A DNA stretch of 64,000 bases from Schizochytrium sp. TIO01 (lineage: Eukaryota; Sar; Bigyra; Thraustochytrida; Thraustochytriidae): assembly GCA_004764695.1 (NCBI GenBank), contig SMSO01000032.1, positions 7,584,668 through 7,648,667 of the forward strand, given 5' to 3'. Below the pieces are notes generated by a model. It did no database searches. It worked only from the letters and a program-made list of their open reading frames with translations, and was not told where the DNA came from. This document shows, piece by piece, positions 18,749-60,436 of this stretch. The stretch's first letter is position 1. The number at the start of each line of letters is the position of its first letter. The position numbers were made by a program, and so were the translations under genes.

Positions 18749-20304
18749 ATACCAACCCGCCAACAACATATGTAGTAGTCATTGAACTTTCTCTCTCATT
18801 GATTTGTTTGTCAACAGATAATTTCCATTCTTCATGTCACCCTGTTTGATGTTTGTCTTGAATTCTATATGGTTATTGATGGTGTATTTTCCCCCGGTTT
18901 CGGATGCAGTTCTAGTAGAAGTCATTCGATTTTTATCTTGTATTCCTTAGAGCTTTAATTTTCAGCAAATATTGTCTTTATAATCGCAATTATCTGGATT
19001 GAGTTTCTTTTTCTTCACCTTTCATGTACCTTGCCAAAGTGACGGAGTATCGAGGCTTGTTTTACCAAGAGCAGATACATACTATCCTTGCTCTTTTAGC
19101 CAATTACAGAAAGGGGGACTTATTTCTTGCCATCTTGAATTCTAAATACAACCAGCAATCGGAGAGACAGGTGTAGCAATACTACAACTGAATGGAGACA
19201 CTTGCAAGGAACATATCAGCTGCATGATGCTTGAAAGATGTGACTGGCAATGCTCGATTGTGAAGGCTTCAAGCAATATGAAAAATCAAATTACATAAAT
19301 GCCTGCCTCCCTCTCTCCAATTTTAAGTAGCAAAATCTTACAAATATTATCCTGTAGAATTAAGCCTGGGCAATCAGAAATTTATGCATTTCAATTTCAC
19401 TTAGCCTATAGTCTATCCCTCGTAAACAAATGTATAAAGTTACAAACATCCAAATGGTGTCGGTAGTTTTCTAAGTCTTGACGCCGCTCATTTTCAACCC
19501 TAGGAGCGAATATATTTAAACAACAGCATAAACGAATACAATCATCCAGGTATCTCGACTTCTCCACCTATGGGAAGCAGGACGGACCCTTTGGGGTGAA
19601 CGCTCGCAAATTGCACCCTTATCTTCCTGAGACCGTGACTTCCGTAAGCCTTCCCATTCTACACACTTGAAGCAAAAGTTTGCTTCTACTGCACTGCTTT
19701 ACCTTATATCCATCTCCATCAAGTCGTATGTTACGACACCATCATAGCACAATAGTACTAGATGCTTAAGAAAACATGTATGAGATCTTCTTTTCTTTTC
19801 TTTTCTTTCTCCCTAAAGTACTAAATTAAACAACTTTCTCTAATCTACTAAGGGTTCATATAAGTTTCATTAGGGGTTCCGAAGGGAAAAAACTCTCCTG
19901 GGTTTTTAACTTTAAAAAAGAAACTGTATATTTTCTTTTAAAGGTCTATATAGAGAGGTACTTACTTATATGGCCATTCTATGCATCTCTGCCTATAATA
20001 AGAAGTATGAGCACCTGCTTGAATAAAACAGGATTGAAAGAAGAGGACAAAGGAAGGAAGATAAATGAAGAAGGCTTCATTCTCTCAGGCTCGAGATCAA
20101 AACTCCAAACTCGGATAGGACGAGCTCCGATTGGCTGCTTGCAAGCTCTGGGAACAAGGTGGTTCCACCACGGGAAAACCTCACTCTACGTGGACGCCTC
20201 TTGGGAAGCGTCGGGAAAGCGGTGGGGGACGCTCAACGAGCGATATACCCTTCCTTCGTCTAGAACGACCTTGAGGTCTTTGTTTCGTTGCATGATAGAC
20301 GAAG
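18749..20304. other. Intergenic, AT-rich, no gene supported
   Basis: A 1.5-kb spacer between two plus-strand genes. It includes a TTTTC pentanucleotide run (about 19789-19810). The last 200 bp become richer in GC and probably hold the promoter and 5' UTR of the piggyBac-derived gene. Confidence 0.45.
19789..19810. repeat. TTTTC pentanucleotide repeat
   Basis: Four near-perfect CTTTT/TTTTC units in an AT-rich spacer. Confidence 0.85.
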
Positions 20305-23259
20305 ATGCCAACTCCGGTTAAGTTTGGCGTTGGAAGCGAGGTGAAGGCAAGCCTTTCAAGGGTTCTAGTGCCAGAAAAGGCAAAAGATCTGTATGGAGAC
20401 GGTTGGCTGGACGTCTTAGTGCCTGGTGTAGTGACGAGGATTGTACAGAGGTCGAGGGAAGTGCAATTTTCGCTCAAGGATGGCTCTACAGCGCTAACCC
20501 AGCTGAGTGTGAAATGCCTTGCTGACAAGGACTCGACAACACCCGGCATCCCCAACAGGCTGAGAAGAAGATCCAAAGATGTTGACAATGAAGTCAATTC
20601 TGATGATTCTGACGACTCCAAGGACTCCGAGGATGATGGGGACACCAAGAAGAACACAGACAAAAAGAAAGCGCCGAAATCCAAAGCAGCTCCAAAGAAG
20701 AAGGCTGCTGCTGCTACTACAAGTGCCTCTAGTGACGCCAAGAGCAAAAAGACCACTAAAAAATCTCCTGGTAAAGACTCCAACAACACTAAGGACAATG
20801 ACAAGGACGAAGCAACTCCCAGCAAAGCGGTAACAAGAAATGCTTCTGGGGCCTCGAAGAAGCCTGCTACGAGGAACAAAGAAAAAGTTGTAACCACGAC
20901 GTCCAACAAGAAGACTACGCCAGCTGCAGCAAAAAAGGCCACTACTACAGCTAGCAAGACTGCAACCGCCAGCAAGAAGGCTGAGGCAGCTAAGAAGGCC
21001 GCAACGACAGGCGCAAAGAAGGCACCAGCAAAGAAAGGGCGCACGGCATTGGTCAAGGATAAAAAGAATCCCGAGCTCGAAGATAGTGTGTCTGAGGCGG
21101 AAACCTACGATGGGATGGATAGCAGTGTCGGTAGCAGCAGTAGTGATGAAGAAGATACGAAGAAGATAGTGGGAGCTAACAAAGATCAACGCTCAAATGC
21201 AAAAGTTTCTAAAAAGTCTACCCCCAAGTCTCCTGCAAAGTCTCCTTCTAAGGGTAGTAAAACAACGTCTGGAGCTCGAACTCCAACGAAGCGTCGTAAG
21301 CTTGTAGAGAGTAGTGGTGACGAAAAAGATACGTCTGACGATGAGGAGCGACCAACTCCAATTAAGAAATTGAGGCAGAAGGCTGACAATGAGTCCGACT
21401 CACATAATGAATCTGACACTACAGTGGATCAGGACAATAAGCGGGCTCTTTCAAAGAAGGCAACCACCAAAAGGTTATCGCATGGGATTGCAAAGGCTCA
21501 TAGTAAGAAATCTGCGACCTCATCGACCCCGACAGCAAAGTTCGGAGGAAAATCGGCATCTTCTTCTCGTAAAAAAAACAGGCGTCGACTAAAGCGAGAT
21601 GAAGTAAGCTCCGATGACGAATCAGAAGATAGTGACACAGAAATGAAAGAAAGAGCCCGAGCTAGTAGTTCTGAGGAAGAGAGTAGCTCAGAAGAAAGCA
21701 GTTCTGAAGAGGAAACTAGCTCTGAGGAAGAGTCTGACGATGATAGGAAAAACAGTGCTGCTGCTAGCATGAACTGGCAGAAGAGGATGAATTCTAGAAT
21801 CCGATTTAAAGAATCTCTGCAGTGGAGCTATATTAAAGAGCGCAAAACTGATACGCGTGCAACATCCTCTCTCCAATCTCGTGAGCCACAAATGCGATGG
21901 ATGGATGATACTGGCGCAAACTATGACCGACCACCGCTTGCGTACTTTATGGAGTTTTTTATTGGGCCAGAAGGCCTTCAAGAACTCGTGCGCTGCACCA
22001 ACCAGCGCCTTGCGCGAAAACGCCACCCAGAGCTCAGTGTACACGAGTTCGAAATCTATGTTGGCCTTATTTTAGCCATGACTCACAGCCCATACGTGCC
22101 GCGTAAATTTCTTTGGAGTGCCAACTCGGGTGATTCGTTTGTCTCTCCAAACTTTTCGCGCTTTATGGCTATTGAGCGCTTCAAACAGATCAGTGCGGCG
22201 CTGTGCTTTGTTGATGAAAACGCTGTTGCTGCTGCTAACGGTTCCCTTGCATCTGATATGAATGGCAAATCCTCACATCATCATCATGAGCTGTCGTTTG
22301 CCGCGTCTGTCGAGCCTTTGGTGCAGTGGTTTAATTCTCGTCGCGAAGCAACTTTAAACCCCGGTCATGGCATGTGTTGTGATGAAGTTTTGGCTAAGTG
22401 GGAGCGTGATGATAGTCGCTTTGAAGATAGCAAGAAAATTCTTAGAAAAGCAATCGGTGATTTCGAATCTCTTGGCGTGGAGATATTTTCTCTTTCGTGC
22501 TGCTCTTCATACGTAACGACTCGTATTGAACTTGTAGACACACAAGAAGGTATGCCAATGAAAAAATTTGATGAAGGCCGACAGCCATCTACAGCATTGA
22601 TGATGCGCCTCGCAGAGCCTTTAGCTGGTTCAGGACGAACAATCTACGCAACTCCCTTACTAGCTTCTGTAGAAGCTGCAGTTTACCTTCGGAGGAACTT
22701 GGGTCTTTTCATGATTGGATCAATCAAGGGTAACGATGAACACTACCCTCGTGACTTTTTGAAGGGCTACCGCTATAAGCACCGAGGAGATTCGTGCTTT
22801 CTAGAAACCGACATTGCCAAAGTGCCTATTTTTGCGCATGGGTGGAAGGGAAGCCATGTAGAATGCATTGTGGCCAACTGTGGCACGGCATTGCCAGGCG
22901 AAAAGACAAAGAAGAGAAAGCGTAAGAGCTCTAGCTATATAGATAAATTGGGCAACGAAGATCGCAAGTTGCCAAAAGACATGACTACTGCTGAGTTCTT
23001 TTCTCATGCTAGCGTGGCAGATATACAGTCTTATCATCGTTCTGAAATTCTCAAAATGGAGCAAGTTAATGTCTCAAAGAGATTTGAGACTCGACTATTT
23101 ACCTCAATCCTTGGCATCTGCATCACAGACGCTTACTTTGCTTCAAGCTTTTTCTGTCCCAAACATGGTCAGTACAACGCAAAAAATCTGCATGAGTTCG
23201 TTATGGCAGTAAGTGATGGCCTTTTATCGAAAGACTCGAGAGGCAAAACTAGTTCATGA
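20305..23259 (+). CDS. piggyBac transposase-derived protein with long disordered N terminus
   Basis: The 984-aa protein starts at ATG 20305. Residues 1-75 look folded and beta-rich (GWLDVLVPGVVTRIVQRSRE), perhaps Tudor/SH3-like. Residues 80-520 are disordered, alternating Lys/Ala-rich, Ser/Pro-rich and Ser/Glu/Asp-rich tracts like those of chromatin proteins. From about 540 to the end is the DDE_Tnp_1_7 (piggyBac) fold: PPLAYFMEFFIGPEGL, then YVGLILAM, then FSRFMAIERFKQI and ALCFVDENA, matching the conserved N-terminal transposase segment in order. The first catalytic Asp is retained (CCDEV, about residue 690). At the second the usual DNxFTS is replaced by ATPLLAS, so the Asp is missing. The C-terminal Cys-rich DNA-binding domain is absent. 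An uninterrupted 984-codon frame with lost catalytic residues suggests a domesticated host gene rather than a live transposon. I could not identify terminal inverted repeats or TTAA target sites flanking it. Confidence 0.75.
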   Translation: MPTPVKFGVGSEVKASLSRVLVPEKAKDLYGDGWLDVLVPGVVTRIVQRSREVQFSLKDGSTALTQLSVKCLADKDSTTPGIPNRLRRRSKDVDNEVNSDDSDDSKDSEDDGDTKKNTDKKKAPKSKAAPKKKAAAATTSASSDAKSKKTTKKSPGKDSNNTKDNDKDEATPSKAVTRNASGASKKPATRNKEKVVTTTSNKKTTPAAAKKATTTASKTATASKKAEAAKKAATTGAKKAPAKKGRTALVKDKKNPELEDSVSEAETYDGMDSSVGSSSSDEEDTKKIVGANKDQRSNAKVSKKSTPKSPAKSPSKGSKTTSGARTPTKRRKLVESSGDEKDTSDDEERPTPIKKLRQKADNESDSHNESDTTVDQDNKRALSKKATTKRLSHGIAKAHSKKSATSSTPTAKFGGKSASSSRKKNRRRLKRDEVSSDDESEDSDTEMKERARASSSEEESSSEESSSEEETSSEEESDDDRKNSAAASMNWQKRMNSRIRFKESLQWSYIKERKTDTRATSSLQSREPQMRWMDDTGANYDRPPLAYFMEFFIGPEGLQELVRCTNQRLARKRHPELSVHEFEIYVGLILAMTHSPYVPRKFLWSANSGDSFVSPNFSRFMAIERFKQISAALCFVDENAVAAANGSLASDMNGKSSHHHHELSFAASVEPLVQWFNSRREATLNPGHGMCCDEVLAKWERDDSRFEDSKKILRKAIGDFESLGVEIFSLSCCSSYVTTRIELVDTQEGMPMKKFDEGRQPSTALMMRLAEPLAGSGRTIYATPLLASVEAAVYLRRNLGLFMIGSIKGNDEHYPRDFLKGYRYKHRGDSCFLETDIAKVPIFAHGWKGSHVECIVANCGTALPGEKTKKRKRKSSSYIDKLGNEDRKLPKDMTTAEFFSHASVADIQSYHRSEILKMEQVNVSKRFETRLFTSILGICITDAYFASSFFCPKHGQYNAKNLHEFVMAVSDGLLSKDSRGKTSS

Positions 23260-53869: not shown

Positions 53870-55179
53870 ACTTTGCACATCATTGCCGAAAGCTAACAAA
53901 ATTTTACAATGTAGAAAAAAAATGATACCTCTGCAGCCAGCTAGGGAAGCAAAGCGTTTTGGTCCAACATGTTCAATAGCACTTGGACCTCATTTCACCA
54001 GCACCTTGATCACTAGTCAAACAAAACACGTTCTTGCTTCTATAAATCACTGCCTCAAATCGATCCTAAACCACATTCAGACACTTTAAAAATTAACCAT
54101 GCGATTGATTCCGACTTCCCTCGTGAAGACGTTGTTTACTTTGGAACTATCTCAATGCCGAACATAACAAATGTGCAATTCTTAGCACAACATTCCTTCA
54201 TACCTTCGTGCGGAAAGGTTTTGATTAATGTCAGCCAACATTTAATTACGATTATATGTTAAAACTACAGAAGAAAATGTGTTTAGATCGATATTGTATT
54301 CGTTATCAGCCTCTGATCTCTCGATGGCAAGCTCTCGCGATGGTTTTAGAGCCAGGGTGCAAAGTGCAAAGAGAAGTAGATAGCCTTCCTCGATGCAGTC
54401 CTCTTCCAAGCCTTTTTAATTTAATATAATATATCTCAAGTGGATTGCAAGGACTATTATTTTATAGATAGCTGAATGAGAGGTTAGCTACCCTTTCAAT
54501 TTTCAGTTGTTCAAAAATGATAACATCGTACTTACTGTACCGAATGGTAAAATCACAATGAATAGTGCTAAAAGATACTTAATGTTGACTGTAAAGATGA
54601 AGGCAGGGATCTCGATGAAGGCTTTAAGAGGGCTGATCTTCAAGAGTTAGTGAACTGCTGTCCTAGAGAATGAATTCCAGGGCAGACGGATTCATGTAGT
54701 AATTAAGGAGGCCAAGACATTCTTGAATAGTGTTAGAGATGTTTGATGAGGTTAGGTTAATTCATCCTCAGCTATCGATTCAACTTACACCATAATTGGA
54801 TCTAGGAAATAGGTAGTCACACGTTTGGCTCTTGACTCTGGCAGCCACACGAATCTGGTTCCCTACTCCTGCTCTATTGTAAGCCCTATGCCTGCGAGGG
54901 TTTTGCAAAGGGACGCCAAGAACTTTAGCAATGTCTTGTCCACTAGTTCCTCCGATTGGAGATCTCAGCAATAGGACGCTCGTCAAATGTCCCGAATACA
55001 CTGAAACATTCAATGTAGGTTAAATAAGAGACTGTGATTCGTTTGGGGAATTCAAGACAAGCAGAGCCAACAAACCCAATAGGTGAGCATTCTCAAACCG
55101 AGCTCAGTGCTACGAAATGACTATTTCTGAGGTCAAGAACCTGAAACTTGAGATACACGGAAAGCGCGCAGCTATCTAG
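53870..55179. other. Gene-poor region downstream of the GNAT gene and beyond the Fanzor remnant
   Basis: No complete gene. On the minus strand 54780-55013 is an open fragment with a helix-turn-helix-like stretch (SGQDIAKVLGVPLQNPRRH), without a usable ATG. It lies on the 3' side of the Fanzor remnant and could belong to the same decayed element, or be chance. Confidence 0.4.
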
Positions 55180-55750
55180 CTACTTAAGGGGCCAATGAAT
55201 AGCATAGAATTGTATCGGGTTATAACGCCTAGAGATTAACCTATAGAATTGTACAAACCTTGCATATCCTATGATGACGTTAGGCTTAGGCCCAATCGCT
55301 GGTTTAAAACTGACCTGCGACTCAAAGACAATCCTCAAATCATGTCCTTGGTAGCGCAAAAGGATGCCTCTGGCGGCGTGGATATCACGATCGGCTACGC
55401 GTGTGCATTTTTAAGGGGCATTTGAAAACTCTGGATGTTCCGAGCTTGTCGTAGATGCTTCTACATTCATTGCATGGTTCTGAATGCTGTGCAATCCTCT
55501 CGACAAACAACCAGTTTATACCACTGGCATGGGAAAAGCTCGGCTTTGTGAATGCGCGCTTGTCCGAGCAAAATGACACAGCGTTCGAGCTGTGTTGCTT
55601 TTGATCCATCCTGATAACTTGTTGGGGTTTCAAATTTAGGCAAAAGGATGACACCGTAGTTTTAACAGAGCCAAAGTGCAAGCTTGCGGCGAACCTCGGT
55701 TGTCCAGTAGGATGCGCAAGCCTGGCCTTTTGAGATTGACCACTCCACCG
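55180..55750 (-). pseudogene. Decayed Fanzor (eukaryotic TnpB-like RNA-guided nuclease), C-terminal half
   Basis: Read on the minus strand, pieces in three frames line up in the order and spacing of the Fanzor/TnpB C-terminal half. LRILLDN, then RRKLALWLC, leads to NYGVILLPKFET (RuvC-II with its Glu). QARIHKAELF and the end of RuvC come next. The zinc-ribbon motif PCNECRSIYDKLGTSRVFKC is followed by VADRDIHAARGILLR, the DRDxHAAR signature of RuvC-III. The frame is broken by a TAA at 55664-55662 and by single-base shifts near 55698, 55482 and in the A run 55408-55412. It therefore cannot encode a working protein. The N-terminal half with RuvC-I is not identifiable; sequence upstream to about 56090 is unassigned. 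By family these nucleases are carried by transposable elements and use a guide RNA encoded at the 3' end. This copy is an inactive relic. Confidence 0.75.
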
Positions 55751-58684
55751 ATGTCTTTGTAGACGGCGGGGGTGTCTGGATAGGCCCGCAGAAGGTCACC
55801 AATCTGGCATTGAAATTTCTCTCTTTGCTTGGCGGAGGGCGCTATGGCGTAGTAGATAATAATGGTATGGTCAGTCCCGCGTTGCTCGCAGCCATAGGTG
55901 CGCTAAACATTGTCACTTGCGTATTGGCGGTGGGGAAGCGCCCAAAGGCCACTTGCTGAGACGCCAAACTTCTGGTTAAAGGACTTTGTTGGCTTCTACG
56001 GTATGTTTGCTTCACTTGTAGTGTTTTGGCGGTTCCTTGGCCATTCCATTTTCTTACCTATCCCCTCCACTTCTAACAAAGACCGACATAATTAGTATAA
56101 TATATCATTTAGGCCTATCATGATATGGAATGCTATACAAGATAAATTTTTATAGGTACCGTGATGTTAATTTAATCTCACCAATTATGATTGGTACCAA
56201 TCGTACAGTGCATATATTGCAACATGTTACATCTAATATCGTGAATTGGCTTATGACGTGCCCTTTCTCTTCAAGCCTTTCTACTTTTCAGGTTTCTGAA
56301 ATATTTTAAAGATAGCTGACGAGACAGTACTTCTTTTTCTTTTCTTTTTTTTCCTAGTGAAATTAACTTTAAAATTAACTTTTGAAAATTACCATTCTTT
56401 TAAATATTTAGTCAATTTTTGATATATTTTTATTTTTAGTAAAAATACAAAATGTTTTTAATTTGTTGTTTTTTAGCCTATGTGATAATAAATAATAGGT
56501 AGGTAGGTATCTCAATTATTAAGGTAGGAGCAATGGTGTAGTAATCTACGGATGTTGTGTCTCATCATTCGATATTTTGGATAAAGGGGGGTCAATCGTT
56601 TTGCAACGACCTTACTTACTTTGGACCTGCAAGGAAACCTTTCACAATAATAGTAAGCTGTATTGCAAGTTGCAAAGGACTCAACAATGCACCCAAGTAA
56701 TTAATGCTCAAGTGCTTAAATTGCGCAGCATGAACGCTTTGGCTGGGTGCCCTAACGCCTCTATTATGTTCTAAGAGATCTTTCAAGCGAGCTGGACTTT
56801 TATAGGCAGTTTAAGAATAAGATCAGATTCTGCAGTCGCGGGATTGTGGTCCGCAATGGTTGTGGCGAAAAGACTGGTCACCATGGAGGGCGAGGCATCG
56901 GGTCAAACCTATGCTCAGCACACAAAGATCAGCAGCAGGTAATTGGCTCGAATTGACCACACATTATCCAGAGCCTTTGCAAATATGTTGATCGTCCTGT
57001 GGACCAGCATTTTTCGACTCCGCACAAGATTGCAAGAACCCGTTCTTGCACCATTCATTCGAAAATCTTGGCAGCCTGAAACTTCCACCAAGTCCTTTTG
57101 CAGCAAGAAGTTCCCATGATGAAAAGACATGCCTTAGCAATGATTGGCGCCTTGGGCTGCTTTGACTCACGAAGCACTTTCTGCGTCATCGATTCATGAA
57201 TCAGGTCCTTCTTTGACCAAGGAAATCAACTCATTGTTCATAAAACTGGCAGAATAGGAGGCAAACGGCGATACTGCGCCGCGTGCAACAAGAAGTTAAA
57301 AGTTCAGAAGAAACGAAAATGCAAAGCATTGAAGCTGCGTCAGCTTGGTAGCAGAAGGTGCACCTCTCTTATCCAGAATAGGAATATACCGCTGCCACGT
57401 TGAATTTACCCCGGACTGTTTCAACGTACGGTTGATTCTTTATCCAAACAAAGAAAAAAAAAAGAAGGAAAAAAAAGAAGAAAGGCGACGAACGTTTCGA
57501 ATACCAACAAAAAAACATGCTCGAGAAGATCAGCACTGTTTGGCGAGAATGTAATTTACGAACATTGACGCAGTGCCCGAAGAACACGCTTAGCAAACAA
57601 GAGGCAACTATGTATTGCTTGTGGTTGGTAAGAGATAAAAGATATCAAATTGGAAGCCTCCAAAGAATATCCATCCATCTCCTGAACTGACATCAATGCC
57701 AAGCTTGTCGACGCTGCTTTGCAGATCGTTTGCAGATCTTCATGATTAGCTTATATGTACGTTTATACTTCCAAAAGTGCTTCTCTTTAGACCTCTATGA
57801 TGTAGGAAAGGATACTCTCAAAAAACAATTTTTTTTTTTTAAAAATGATAGCTTATTGACGACTACAGTGCCTCGGCAAAGTGTCGGCTATTCTTGATCG
57901 ATGTACATCCTTTATCTCTATAAGCTCGGGTATCTTGAGCTCCTCTCCGTTTATCGTAATATTTGAGGGAAGTGTTGTCCTTTTTATCCTCCCATTCTTA
58001 CGCTGATGATATAAGTTCTAACTTTTTTTTTCAACATACGGGAAAAGAACTCGAAACGATAATCTTCGCATGAGAACCAAGAGCTGAATTTGTAAGGCAA
58101 CCAATTGAGCGAAATTTCGTTCTCGTTCAAAGCGTTAATGCCAGTGCTCGATCTAGCACTCAGAGAGCACTCACGAATTCTACACTTATTCCACTGTGTG
58201 CGCATTCGCTCGAGCCAGTCCTTGCGAGCAAACCCGTGCTACCGTTCTTTCCATTGAGGTAGTCACATACTTGTAATTTTTTCCGCCCTGGCTAGGCAGT
58301 GTGACTATGACGAACGAATATATGTGTCCCCAAGATTAGCACATAGTGAGGCTAGGTAGCATCTAGTTCGTGTCTTTCAAAAGCAGCGGTAGATAGAGGG
58401 TGAAATATAGCAAGGAGTTGATTAGTTATGCGTTTGTGAATAGGAATGTGATTTTTTGCATACTAACTCGTGTACAATTCTAACAACTTTTCGTTTCAGC
58501 TCTATAGCAGAAGCAGGAATTGTGGAGGGACTTTTGAGCAAAAAATAAATTAAATGGTGCCTGGCCAAGTACCGAAGTCAAGTACTAACTAGCTCAGAGC
58601 TCCTTCTCCCTTTTCAAAGAGCGGCAAATATGAAATGTAGACGACGTTACCAAAGTTTGGTAGCTAGTTTGCTTTCTCTGCAGC
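55751..58684. other. Gene-poor region with degraded element fragments
   Basis: Nearly 3 kb without an intact gene. 55751-56090 is GC-richer and open on both strands in register. 56150-56520 is very AT-rich. 56800-57370 contains broken protein-like segments, including a plus-strand Lys/Cys-rich stretch (KRRYCAACNKKLKVQKKRKC, about 57263-57322). A purine-rich run spans 57448-57486. It reads as transposon debris; the families other than Fanzor are not certain. Confidence 0.4.
57448..57486. repeat. Purine-rich low-complexity tract
   Basis: An A-rich GA run (AAAAAAAAGAAGG-like) with no unit longer than a few bases. Confidence 0.8.
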
Positions 58685-60436
58685 ATGACGCCGTATTCCA
58701 GATCCGGCGCAACTCAACAGCCAAATGGCATTGGGCATCTGCCAGAACAAAATGAGTTATGTAATGATGCAATTCTCAAACGTTTTGGACAATGGGAAAG
58801 TTATGATTTATATCCGTCATATATGTCCCCATTAGGATGGGGTTTAGGAATAAGTTTATGCGCCATTGTAGTGATTGCAGTCGCCCTAATGCTTCCACGC
58901 AGACATCTTTACCCGTTGTGTCTCTCCTCACCGGTACTCGCTACTGCACAAGGTGTCGGTATCTTGTTTTTGTGCGTTGTGGTTTGTTTCCGTGACGCGA
59001 ACCTACGCAGGGATTTTAGTTGTGATGTTACCCTCTGGGGGAAAACTTTGTCTTTTCCACTTATAATTGGCTCTCAAATCGCAATGCTGTCTCAAATGCA
59101 CAATCGAGTGCTTCTAGCAGAGGAAATGCAAAAGTTTTCCGTCACAGAAGATGATATTGCTTTTGACGAGCTTATTCGTAGCGTTCGTAGGGCTGGTCGA
59201 TGGAATGAGGTCCGAGTCATTCTCATTATAATGATCGTACCTCTAGCAGTTGCGATTGCTGCATATCATAAAGACTATTATGGGAACGGTTGTATTGGCT
59301 GTCAGCGAGAGTTAGAGGGTGATCTAATTTTTGCTTGTTTTGCTTTCCTTGGACTTGGAGCCTCTGTGATATTAGTATATTGTCTTCGTCGCTACGAAGA
59401 CCCTTTAAGGTTGCGTCAAAAATGTCAGCGAGTCCTACTTGTTTTCATATTTGCTACAATCTCGTTTATAATTCTGAGCAATCTTGATCCGGGACACTAT
59501 GAAGACCATGGCTACGTGAACTATTCTTGGATTATTGTTGCTGGCGCAATGTATGCGTTTACAGCGAACTGTCTCTGGCCTCTCTTTTTAACGTTTTATG
59601 ATCCACTCCAGGCAAAATTATATCGCAGACGTCATCGCCAGCACCATTGTAAAATGGCACGGCGTTTTCAGGTAGTTGACCGTTTACGAACGAATGCAAT
59701 TACTTCATTAGCCGCATCTTCAGGGTTGAAGTCAAATGCTAATAGCACAGTGCCCTCTGAGCAAGATGATCTAAGTCTTGGGGAAGTTCTCCAAATCCGA
59801 AACGGATTGCAGGCATTTCAGCGTCATCTCGCACAAGAGTTTAACATTGAAAACATTCTTTTTTGGCGTGCAGCACAAGAATGGCGTGATATGTATTATC
59901 GTTCACCTACCATCCAGTCTCGTGAAATTGTTGCACAAAAGATTTATGCAGCATTTATTCCTCATCGAGCGCCAATGCAGGTCAACCTTTCTTGTCACCA
60001 CGTGCAGTCCTTGGCTGCAATCTTTGAAACAAGAGACTCGTGTAATTGTTCTCCTAAACCCATTACTGTGTTTGACGAAGCCATCTCTGCTGTGTTTCAG
60101 TTAATGCAGTCAGATAGCTTCCAGAGATTTAAATTCACGGATGCATACTTGAACTTGAACTCGAGACGCCATAGTGTAGTCTCGCGTTCACGAAAAATTA
60201 GTCTCACCACAAAATCAGCTTCGCATCAGCAGGGTTACTGTCGGCGAAATGAGCATCTGGAGATTGAGCAAGAGCAAGGATACGACGCAAACAACCCCCA
60301 ACAGAGAGCGCAAATGCCTTGTCCCAGAAATCCAGTGGAACCTCAACAGGATACGGACTATCCACATGAAGATGAAGATAATCGTACCACTATTATCGGT
60401 GGCCAAACAGGAAAACCACGAATGAGCATCGTTTAA
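58685..60436 (+). CDS. Seven-transmembrane RGS protein
   Basis: The 583-aa protein starts at ATG 58685. Seven hydrophobic segments are visible between about residues 50 and 305 (for example WGLGISLCAIVVIAVALML, ILIIMIVPLAVAIAAY, LLVFIFATISFIILSNL). A conserved Cys-x2-Cys loop (GCIGCQRE) lies before segment 5. After a basic linker the RGS domain runs from about 365 to 490: LGEVLQIRNGLQAFQRHL, then EFNIENILFWRAAQEW, later FDEAISAVFQLMQSDSFQRF. These are the conserved helices that contact G-alpha. By family, 7TM-RGS proteins such as plant RGS1 couple a membrane sensor to GTPase acceleration of a G-alpha subunit. The Ser/Gln-rich C-terminal 90 residues are disordered. The ligand is unknown. Confidence 0.88.
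   Translation: MTPYSRSGATQQPNGIGHLPEQNELCNDAILKRFGQWESYDLYPSYMSPLGWGLGISLCAIVVIAVALMLPRRHLYPLCLSSPVLATAQGVGILFLCVVVCFRDANLRRDFSCDVTLWGKTLSFPLIIGSQIAMLSQMHNRVLLAEEMQKFSVTEDDIAFDELIRSVRRAGRWNEVRVILIIMIVPLAVAIAAYHKDYYGNGCIGCQRELEGDLIFACFAFLGLGASVILVYCLRRYEDPLRLRQKCQRVLLVFIFATISFIILSNLDPGHYEDHGYVNYSWIIVAGAMYAFTANCLWPLFLTFYDPLQAKLYRRRHRQHHCKMARRFQVVDRLRTNAITSLAASSGLKSNANSTVPSEQDDLSLGEVLQIRNGLQAFQRHLAQEFNIENILFWRAAQEWRDMYYRSPTIQSREIVAQKIYAAFIPHRAPMQVNLSCHHVQSLAAIFETRDSCNCSPKPITVFDEAISAVFQLMQSDSFQRFKFTDAYLNLNSRRHSVVSRSRKISLTTKSASHQQGYCRRNEHLEIEQEQGYDANNPQQRAQMPCPRNPVEPQQDTDYPHEDEDNRTTIIGGQTGKPRMSIV

Follow-up and report, generated by a model that had tools for sequence, protein, structure and literature searches.

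The window analysed here, a 64,000-nt stretch of contig SMSO01000032.1 from Schizochytrium sp. TIO01, carries on its minus strand a relic element of 934 bp (55226..56159), delimited with an alignment of 28 family copies. It begins with GTACC (at 56159) and ends with CTAGGCG (at 55226), and conservation amongst the copies falls sharply on both sides. The core dinucleotide, TG in the family, has decayed in this copy to GG at the left end (56159..56160) and to CG at the right end (55226..55227). Judged by its sequence, the element is a non-autonomous, internally deleted derivative of a bacterial-type transposon carrying a Fanzor RNA-guided nuclease.

Remnants of two genes are recognisable within the relic, both on the minus strand. 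The remnant of an IS607 TnpA serine recombinase, consisting of the helix-turn-helix (HTH) and the first half of the catalytic domain, lies at 55702..55995, where tblastn with an intact TnpA as the query gave 50% identity over 116 columns (E 8.6e-24). The C-terminus of a Fanzor2 protein (residues ~330–455; NYGVILLPKFET, the zinc ribbon and VADRDIHAARGILLR) lies at 55336..55700 in three frames: 55485–55700 corresponds to residues 330–406, 55415–55483 to residues 406–428 and 55336–55410 to residues 431–455. When the window was searched by frame-tolerant translation (tblastn, with the intact Fanzor2 of the same genome as the query), these pieces combined were significant at E 1.5e-24, while the reversed window, used as a control, matched neither protein. 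Fanzor C-terminal pieces in this order and in three frames of the minus strand were what the original prediction had described. Taken singly, the frame pieces of the window copy are too short and broken and gave no Fanzor match in Pfam, so the evidence for Fanzor in this copy comes from the joined pieces and from the DNA, which is 84% identical to the family consensus across 935 aligned columns (E 0). The right end (55226..55340, minus strand) holds what is left of the guide-RNA (reRNA) scaffold, as located by the fold in intact copies and in the family consensus; the window had no match in Rfam.

Aligned with the intact elements described below, the window DNA falls into two blocks that abut at 55700/55702. 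At this junction (55700..55702, minus strand), ~1195 bp of the intact element (positions ~516 to ~1712) are absent: the deletion removed TnpA from its middle onwards together with most of Fanzor, and both ends and the guide-RNA scaffold were kept. The original prediction had placed the relic at 55180–55750, a span that does contain the Fanzor pieces, but the relic runs to about 56159. It had also attributed the loss of function to a stop and single-base shifts. These are present, and the copy is dead as predicted, but the main lesion is the family-wide deletion of ~1.2 kb, with the stop and the shifts on top of it. A Fanzor relic was thus correctly recognised; that it is a Fanzor2, that the parent element is of the IS607 type and encodes a serine recombinase, and that the copy belongs to a large, internally deleted, non-autonomous family had been missed.

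Other features of the window may be mentioned. At 20299–23259 (plus strand), a frame of 986 residues has a long charged N-terminal region ahead of a C-terminal PiggyBac/IS4-type transposase domain (DDE_Tnp_1_7, E 3e-32). Another frame, of 590 residues (58664–60436, plus strand), combines a hydrophobic N-terminal half with an RGS domain (E 1.1e-18), a layout like that of an RGS-coupled receptor. Weak matches at 54742–54969 to the flanks of three Fanzor copies (L004, L025 and L015) probably represent another dispersed repeat. The genes are long and intron-poor. The contig of the window terminates in (TTAGG)n (L083), and many contig ends have 5.8S rDNA at a distance of roughly 10–30 kb, with further 5.8S rDNA lying internally. 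Together these traits point to a thraustochytrid such as Aurantiochytrium; a 2023 paper by Collier et al. reportedly concerns, going by its title, universal subtelomeric rDNAs in Aurantiochytrium.

The expectation that intact relatives exist elsewhere was borne out in the whole genome (64.06 Mb in 37 contigs). A profile search with PF07282 (Fanzor/TnpB zinc ribbon) returned 36 matches, and in no fewer than 14 loci the Fanzor2 frame stays open over 423 residues or more, counted from the KxRVYPT motif. The autonomous element is ~2.2 kb long (aligned length about 2205 bp in most copies) and consists of TnpA, an overlapping Fanzor2 and a structured, guide-RNA-like right end. Between intact copies, the dN/dS ratio of Fanzor2 is 0.20–0.45, which indicates that the protein was under purifying selection while the copies spread. 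The upstream TnpA frame encodes 232 residues and matches the profile NF033518 (transpos_IS607) above cut-off (E 1.9e-42, covering residues 27–210) as well as Resolvase PF00239 (E 5.1e-20), with weak, sub-cut-off MerR/HTH_17 matches at residues 28–66; its best solved structures are of the IS607 family. On these matches, the intact element is of the IS607 type, with a serine recombinase that carries an N-terminal HTH. In all, NF033518 has 46 matches in the genome, 21 of them above cut-off. Three intact-Fanzor2 copies at different genomic sites have their TnpA broken, in the HTH region, by a 294-bp insert (L036:2593-2886, L044:840-1133 and L035:3167-3461) that is 99.7–100% identical amongst them and contains the genome's telomere repeat as a (CCTAA)5 run. 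The insert has no GT–AG ends, and we rejected it as an intron.

In the published Fanzor fingerprint (PMC10711439), RuvC-I has a DPG motif, and a glutamate is displaced to a position six residues ahead of the zinc ribbon. In the intact copies, RuvC-I reads LDPGVR, in which D254-P255-G256 are invariant, the cyanobacterial relatives included, and the RuvC-II glutamate (Ealt; E402, likewise invariant) is found six residues before the first zinc-ribbon cysteine (QESYTSKTCNEC). The strict form of the published zinc-ribbon search pattern, CxxC...CxxC, fails in the current lineage (CNEC...CPNPKC), where the second zinc pair is Cx4C; the older copy L020 has CxxC (CPKC), and all four cysteines are present. 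We treat Cx4C as a spacing variant and not as grounds for exclusion, since the published pattern is a search filter and not a definition. The best solved relative is the mimivirus Fanzor2 9b0l, both by sequence (2.9e-19) and by fold (2.4e-13, with a rough AlphaFold2 model of moderate mean pLDDT, 72.5), and the sequence search found no Fanzor1 chain amongst the solved structures. The best matches in bacterial genomes are mostly cyanobacterial (identity ~30–40%); TnpA lies alongside in 71 of the 80 prokaryotic relative loci, and the loose fingerprint pattern is found in only 42 of them. The viral contigs scanned with the Fanzor2 protein or alignment contained no relative. By sequence and modelled fold, then, the protein appears closest to Fanzor2/pro-Fanzor, and the intact Fanzor2 is predicted to cleave DNA under RNA guidance.

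With the window relic as the query, 40 copies were scored amongst 248 candidates, 69–78% identical to the window copy, and the deletion junction is identical in all 30 relatives fetched and examined. The family consensus is about 970 bp long (972 bp) and has no intact TnpB frame. Its members have kept the ends and the guide-RNA region, have lost the Fanzor frame and are numerous, and we refer to them as ghosts. They have diverged from the consensus by a mean K2P distance of 0.17 (~17%), and the divergence is virtually the same at the three codon positions (0.146/0.150/0.145), which indicates that the ghosts have decayed neutrally, with no coding constraint. The shared junction, the neutral decay and the lack of an intact TnpB frame together are best explained by a deletion derivative that was moved in trans. 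The ghost consensus is 84% identical to L020, a decayed full-length copy, and 75–78% identical to the current intact lineage; the right end CTAAG-TG is common to the ghosts and L020.

Neither terminal inverted repeats nor target duplications were found at the ends of the 18–19 intact and 28 ghost copies inspected. Intact copies start after C-AG in 13 out of 19 cases (the other six lack AG at the left) and end in CTAAG-AG, the right AG being present in all right ends found. Ghosts start after (C)TG in 15 out of 28 cases and end in CTAAG-TG in 16 out of 28. We took the left bases from the aligned ends, reading a few copies by eye. For these counts of the core dinucleotides, which are matched as AG/AG in intact copies and as TG/TG in ghosts, the binomial P is 1e-10 or less. 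The left flanks suggest a C[A/T]G-like motif as a putative TAM. IS607 TnpA crosses over between matching dinucleotides (PMC10711439), and the change from AG to TG at both ends together is what such a crossover predicts. With the exceptions given, these copies have the matching end dinucleotides, and the lack of inverted repeats and target duplications, of IS607-type elements. One intact copy (L039) is nested in a ghost of greater age; when its flanks are joined, they align gaplessly to the ghost consensus at CAG|ACAC, which gives an exact empty site, the sole one found.

Three stem-loops form in the folded right ends of intact copies (z −3.9 and −6.1) and of the ghost consensus (z −4.25); the fold is lost in the window copy (z −0.5), and the evidence for it is taken from the intact copies and the family consensus. 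In the right-end alignment, 82% of cells are paired, versus 38–51% in slid-partner controls, and the covariation score of the fold was reached by one of 500 shuffles. We regard the covariation as modest, supportive but not strong, since the ghosts decay neutrally; their decay also accounts for the weak consensus that RNAalifold returned for ghosts and intact copies together. The three-stem architecture agrees with the shape of IS607 reRNA in PMC10711439, and by this analogy the right end may function as a guide RNA.

We consider it very probable that the window copy is a dead ghost and that its family arose when an IS607-type Fanzor2 transposon lost ~1.2 kb in a single internal deletion. The grounds are the shared junction, the many dispersed copies, the sharp ends without inverted repeats or target duplications, the matched core dinucleotides, the neutral decay and the coexistence of copies with intact Fanzor2. 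The stops and shifts of the window copy could be taken for those of one autonomous Fanzor element that merely decayed where it stood, but this is very unlikely: it is refuted by the main lesion, which recurs with the same junction throughout the relatives examined, and the family consensus itself lacks an intact TnpB frame. Nor do the relatives represent one segmental duplication with common flanks, as similarity stops at the element ends. Stramenopiles are known hosts of Fanzor1 (PMC3627910), which speaks for a Fanzor1 that travelled in a eukaryotic DNA transposon of the Helitron, mariner, Sola or MuDR kind. This alternative is refuted by the IS607 TnpA that the element encodes and that is linked in the intact copies; the ends without inverted repeats or target duplications, the mimivirus Fanzor2 as best solved relative and the absence of a Fanzor1 chain from the sequence search add to a case that leaves it next to no probability.

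Cyanobacterial TnpBs neighbouring IS607 TnpA make up most of the nearest prokaryotic relatives, as would be the case if the copies were bacterial contamination or stemmed from a very recent bacterial IS insertion instead of an established eukaryotic element. Yet the copies are spread over many megabase contigs, one with a telomere, the cyanobacterial proteins are distant in sequence, and the extent of ghost divergence implies that the family is old in this genome; we give this explanation hardly any credence. Somewhat less improbable, though still a long shot, is that the ghosts are kept by a function of their own (e.g., as a regulatory RNA) and not as parasites of an autonomous partner: the strongly folding right end retained in the ghost consensus is in its favour, and the neutral decay of individual ghosts and the unfolded right end of the window copy count against it.

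A deletion derivative of an IS607-type Fanzor2 transposon could have spread as follows. A single internal deletion of ~1.2 kb very probably founded the ghost family. An autonomous partner presumably supplied the TnpA that mobilised its members in trans, and they would have moved in the manner of IS607, through excision as a circle and crossover at a dinucleotide. The partner may have been the L020 lineage, given the TG right end in common and the 84% identity. The Fanzor2 of intact copies would load the right-end RNA, with flanking host DNA as the guide, and, thus loaded, may cut the empty site, after which the sister copy would serve to restore the element and avert its loss. Ghosts might have served as dispersed guide RNAs, each transcribing a scaffold fused to its own flanking host sequence, loading Fanzor2 made elsewhere and guarding its own site; we put this forward tentatively, as a possibility more doubtful than likely. 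If true, it would amount to a two-part system: copies encoding neither protein would be mobilised by IS607 TnpA and retained by Fanzor2.

IS607-type Fanzor2 elements are already known from Acanthamoeba (ACa-1/-2), mimivirus (ISvMimi) and the Cafeteria virus (CRv-1) (Bao and Jurka 2013, PMC3627910; Yoon et al. 2023, PMC10711439), and Fanzor1 ghost loci (Spu-1) from Spizellomyces punctatus (Saito et al. 2023, PMC10432273). Like the former, the elements described here combine a TnpA serine recombinase with a TnpB/Fanzor2 that has the DPG motif and the displaced catalytic glutamate six residues before the zinc ribbon, and have a matched dinucleotide and a structured right-end RNA without inverted repeats or target duplications; unlike them, they include the Cx4C second zinc pair of the current lineage, occur at no fewer than 14 intact Fanzor2 loci in one genome and are accompanied by a large deletion-derivative family. 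The ghost Spu-1 loci resemble ours in that ends and guide-RNA region are kept without the Fanzor frame, ghosts outnumber intact elements and the end sequence differs from that of the intact elements. They are, however, Fanzor1 elements with inverted repeats of 30 nt, between which no transposase was found, whereas ours go back to an IS607 element encoding a serine recombinase and keep parts of both genes. The S. punctatus ghost guide RNA has been shown to be functional with Fanzor protein (PMC10432273); here, such an activity is putative, by analogy. The best prokaryotic relatives, cyanobacterial pro-Fanzors (IS607 TnpB with DPG and displaced glutamate), have TnpA alongside as reported for them, and differ in their bacterial hosts, in their distant sequence and in often lacking even the loose fingerprint. 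What is new is the occurrence of intact elements and IS607-type ghosts together in one genome. In the literature searched, which took in few subscription papers, we found no report of an IS607-Fanzor2 ghost family, nor of Fanzor or IS607 elements in thraustochytrids.

These findings extend the record of IS607 elements in eukaryotes and bear on the role that Fanzor plays for the transposon carrying it in a eukaryotic host. Both Fanzor2 nucleases tested in PMC10432273 came from loci without clear transposase association. In the Schizochytrium genome, the recombinase, the guide-RNA end and intact Fanzor2 occur side by side with a dated family that would depend on both proteins in trans, so that any contribution of Fanzor2 to the persistence of IS607-type elements could be tested directly.
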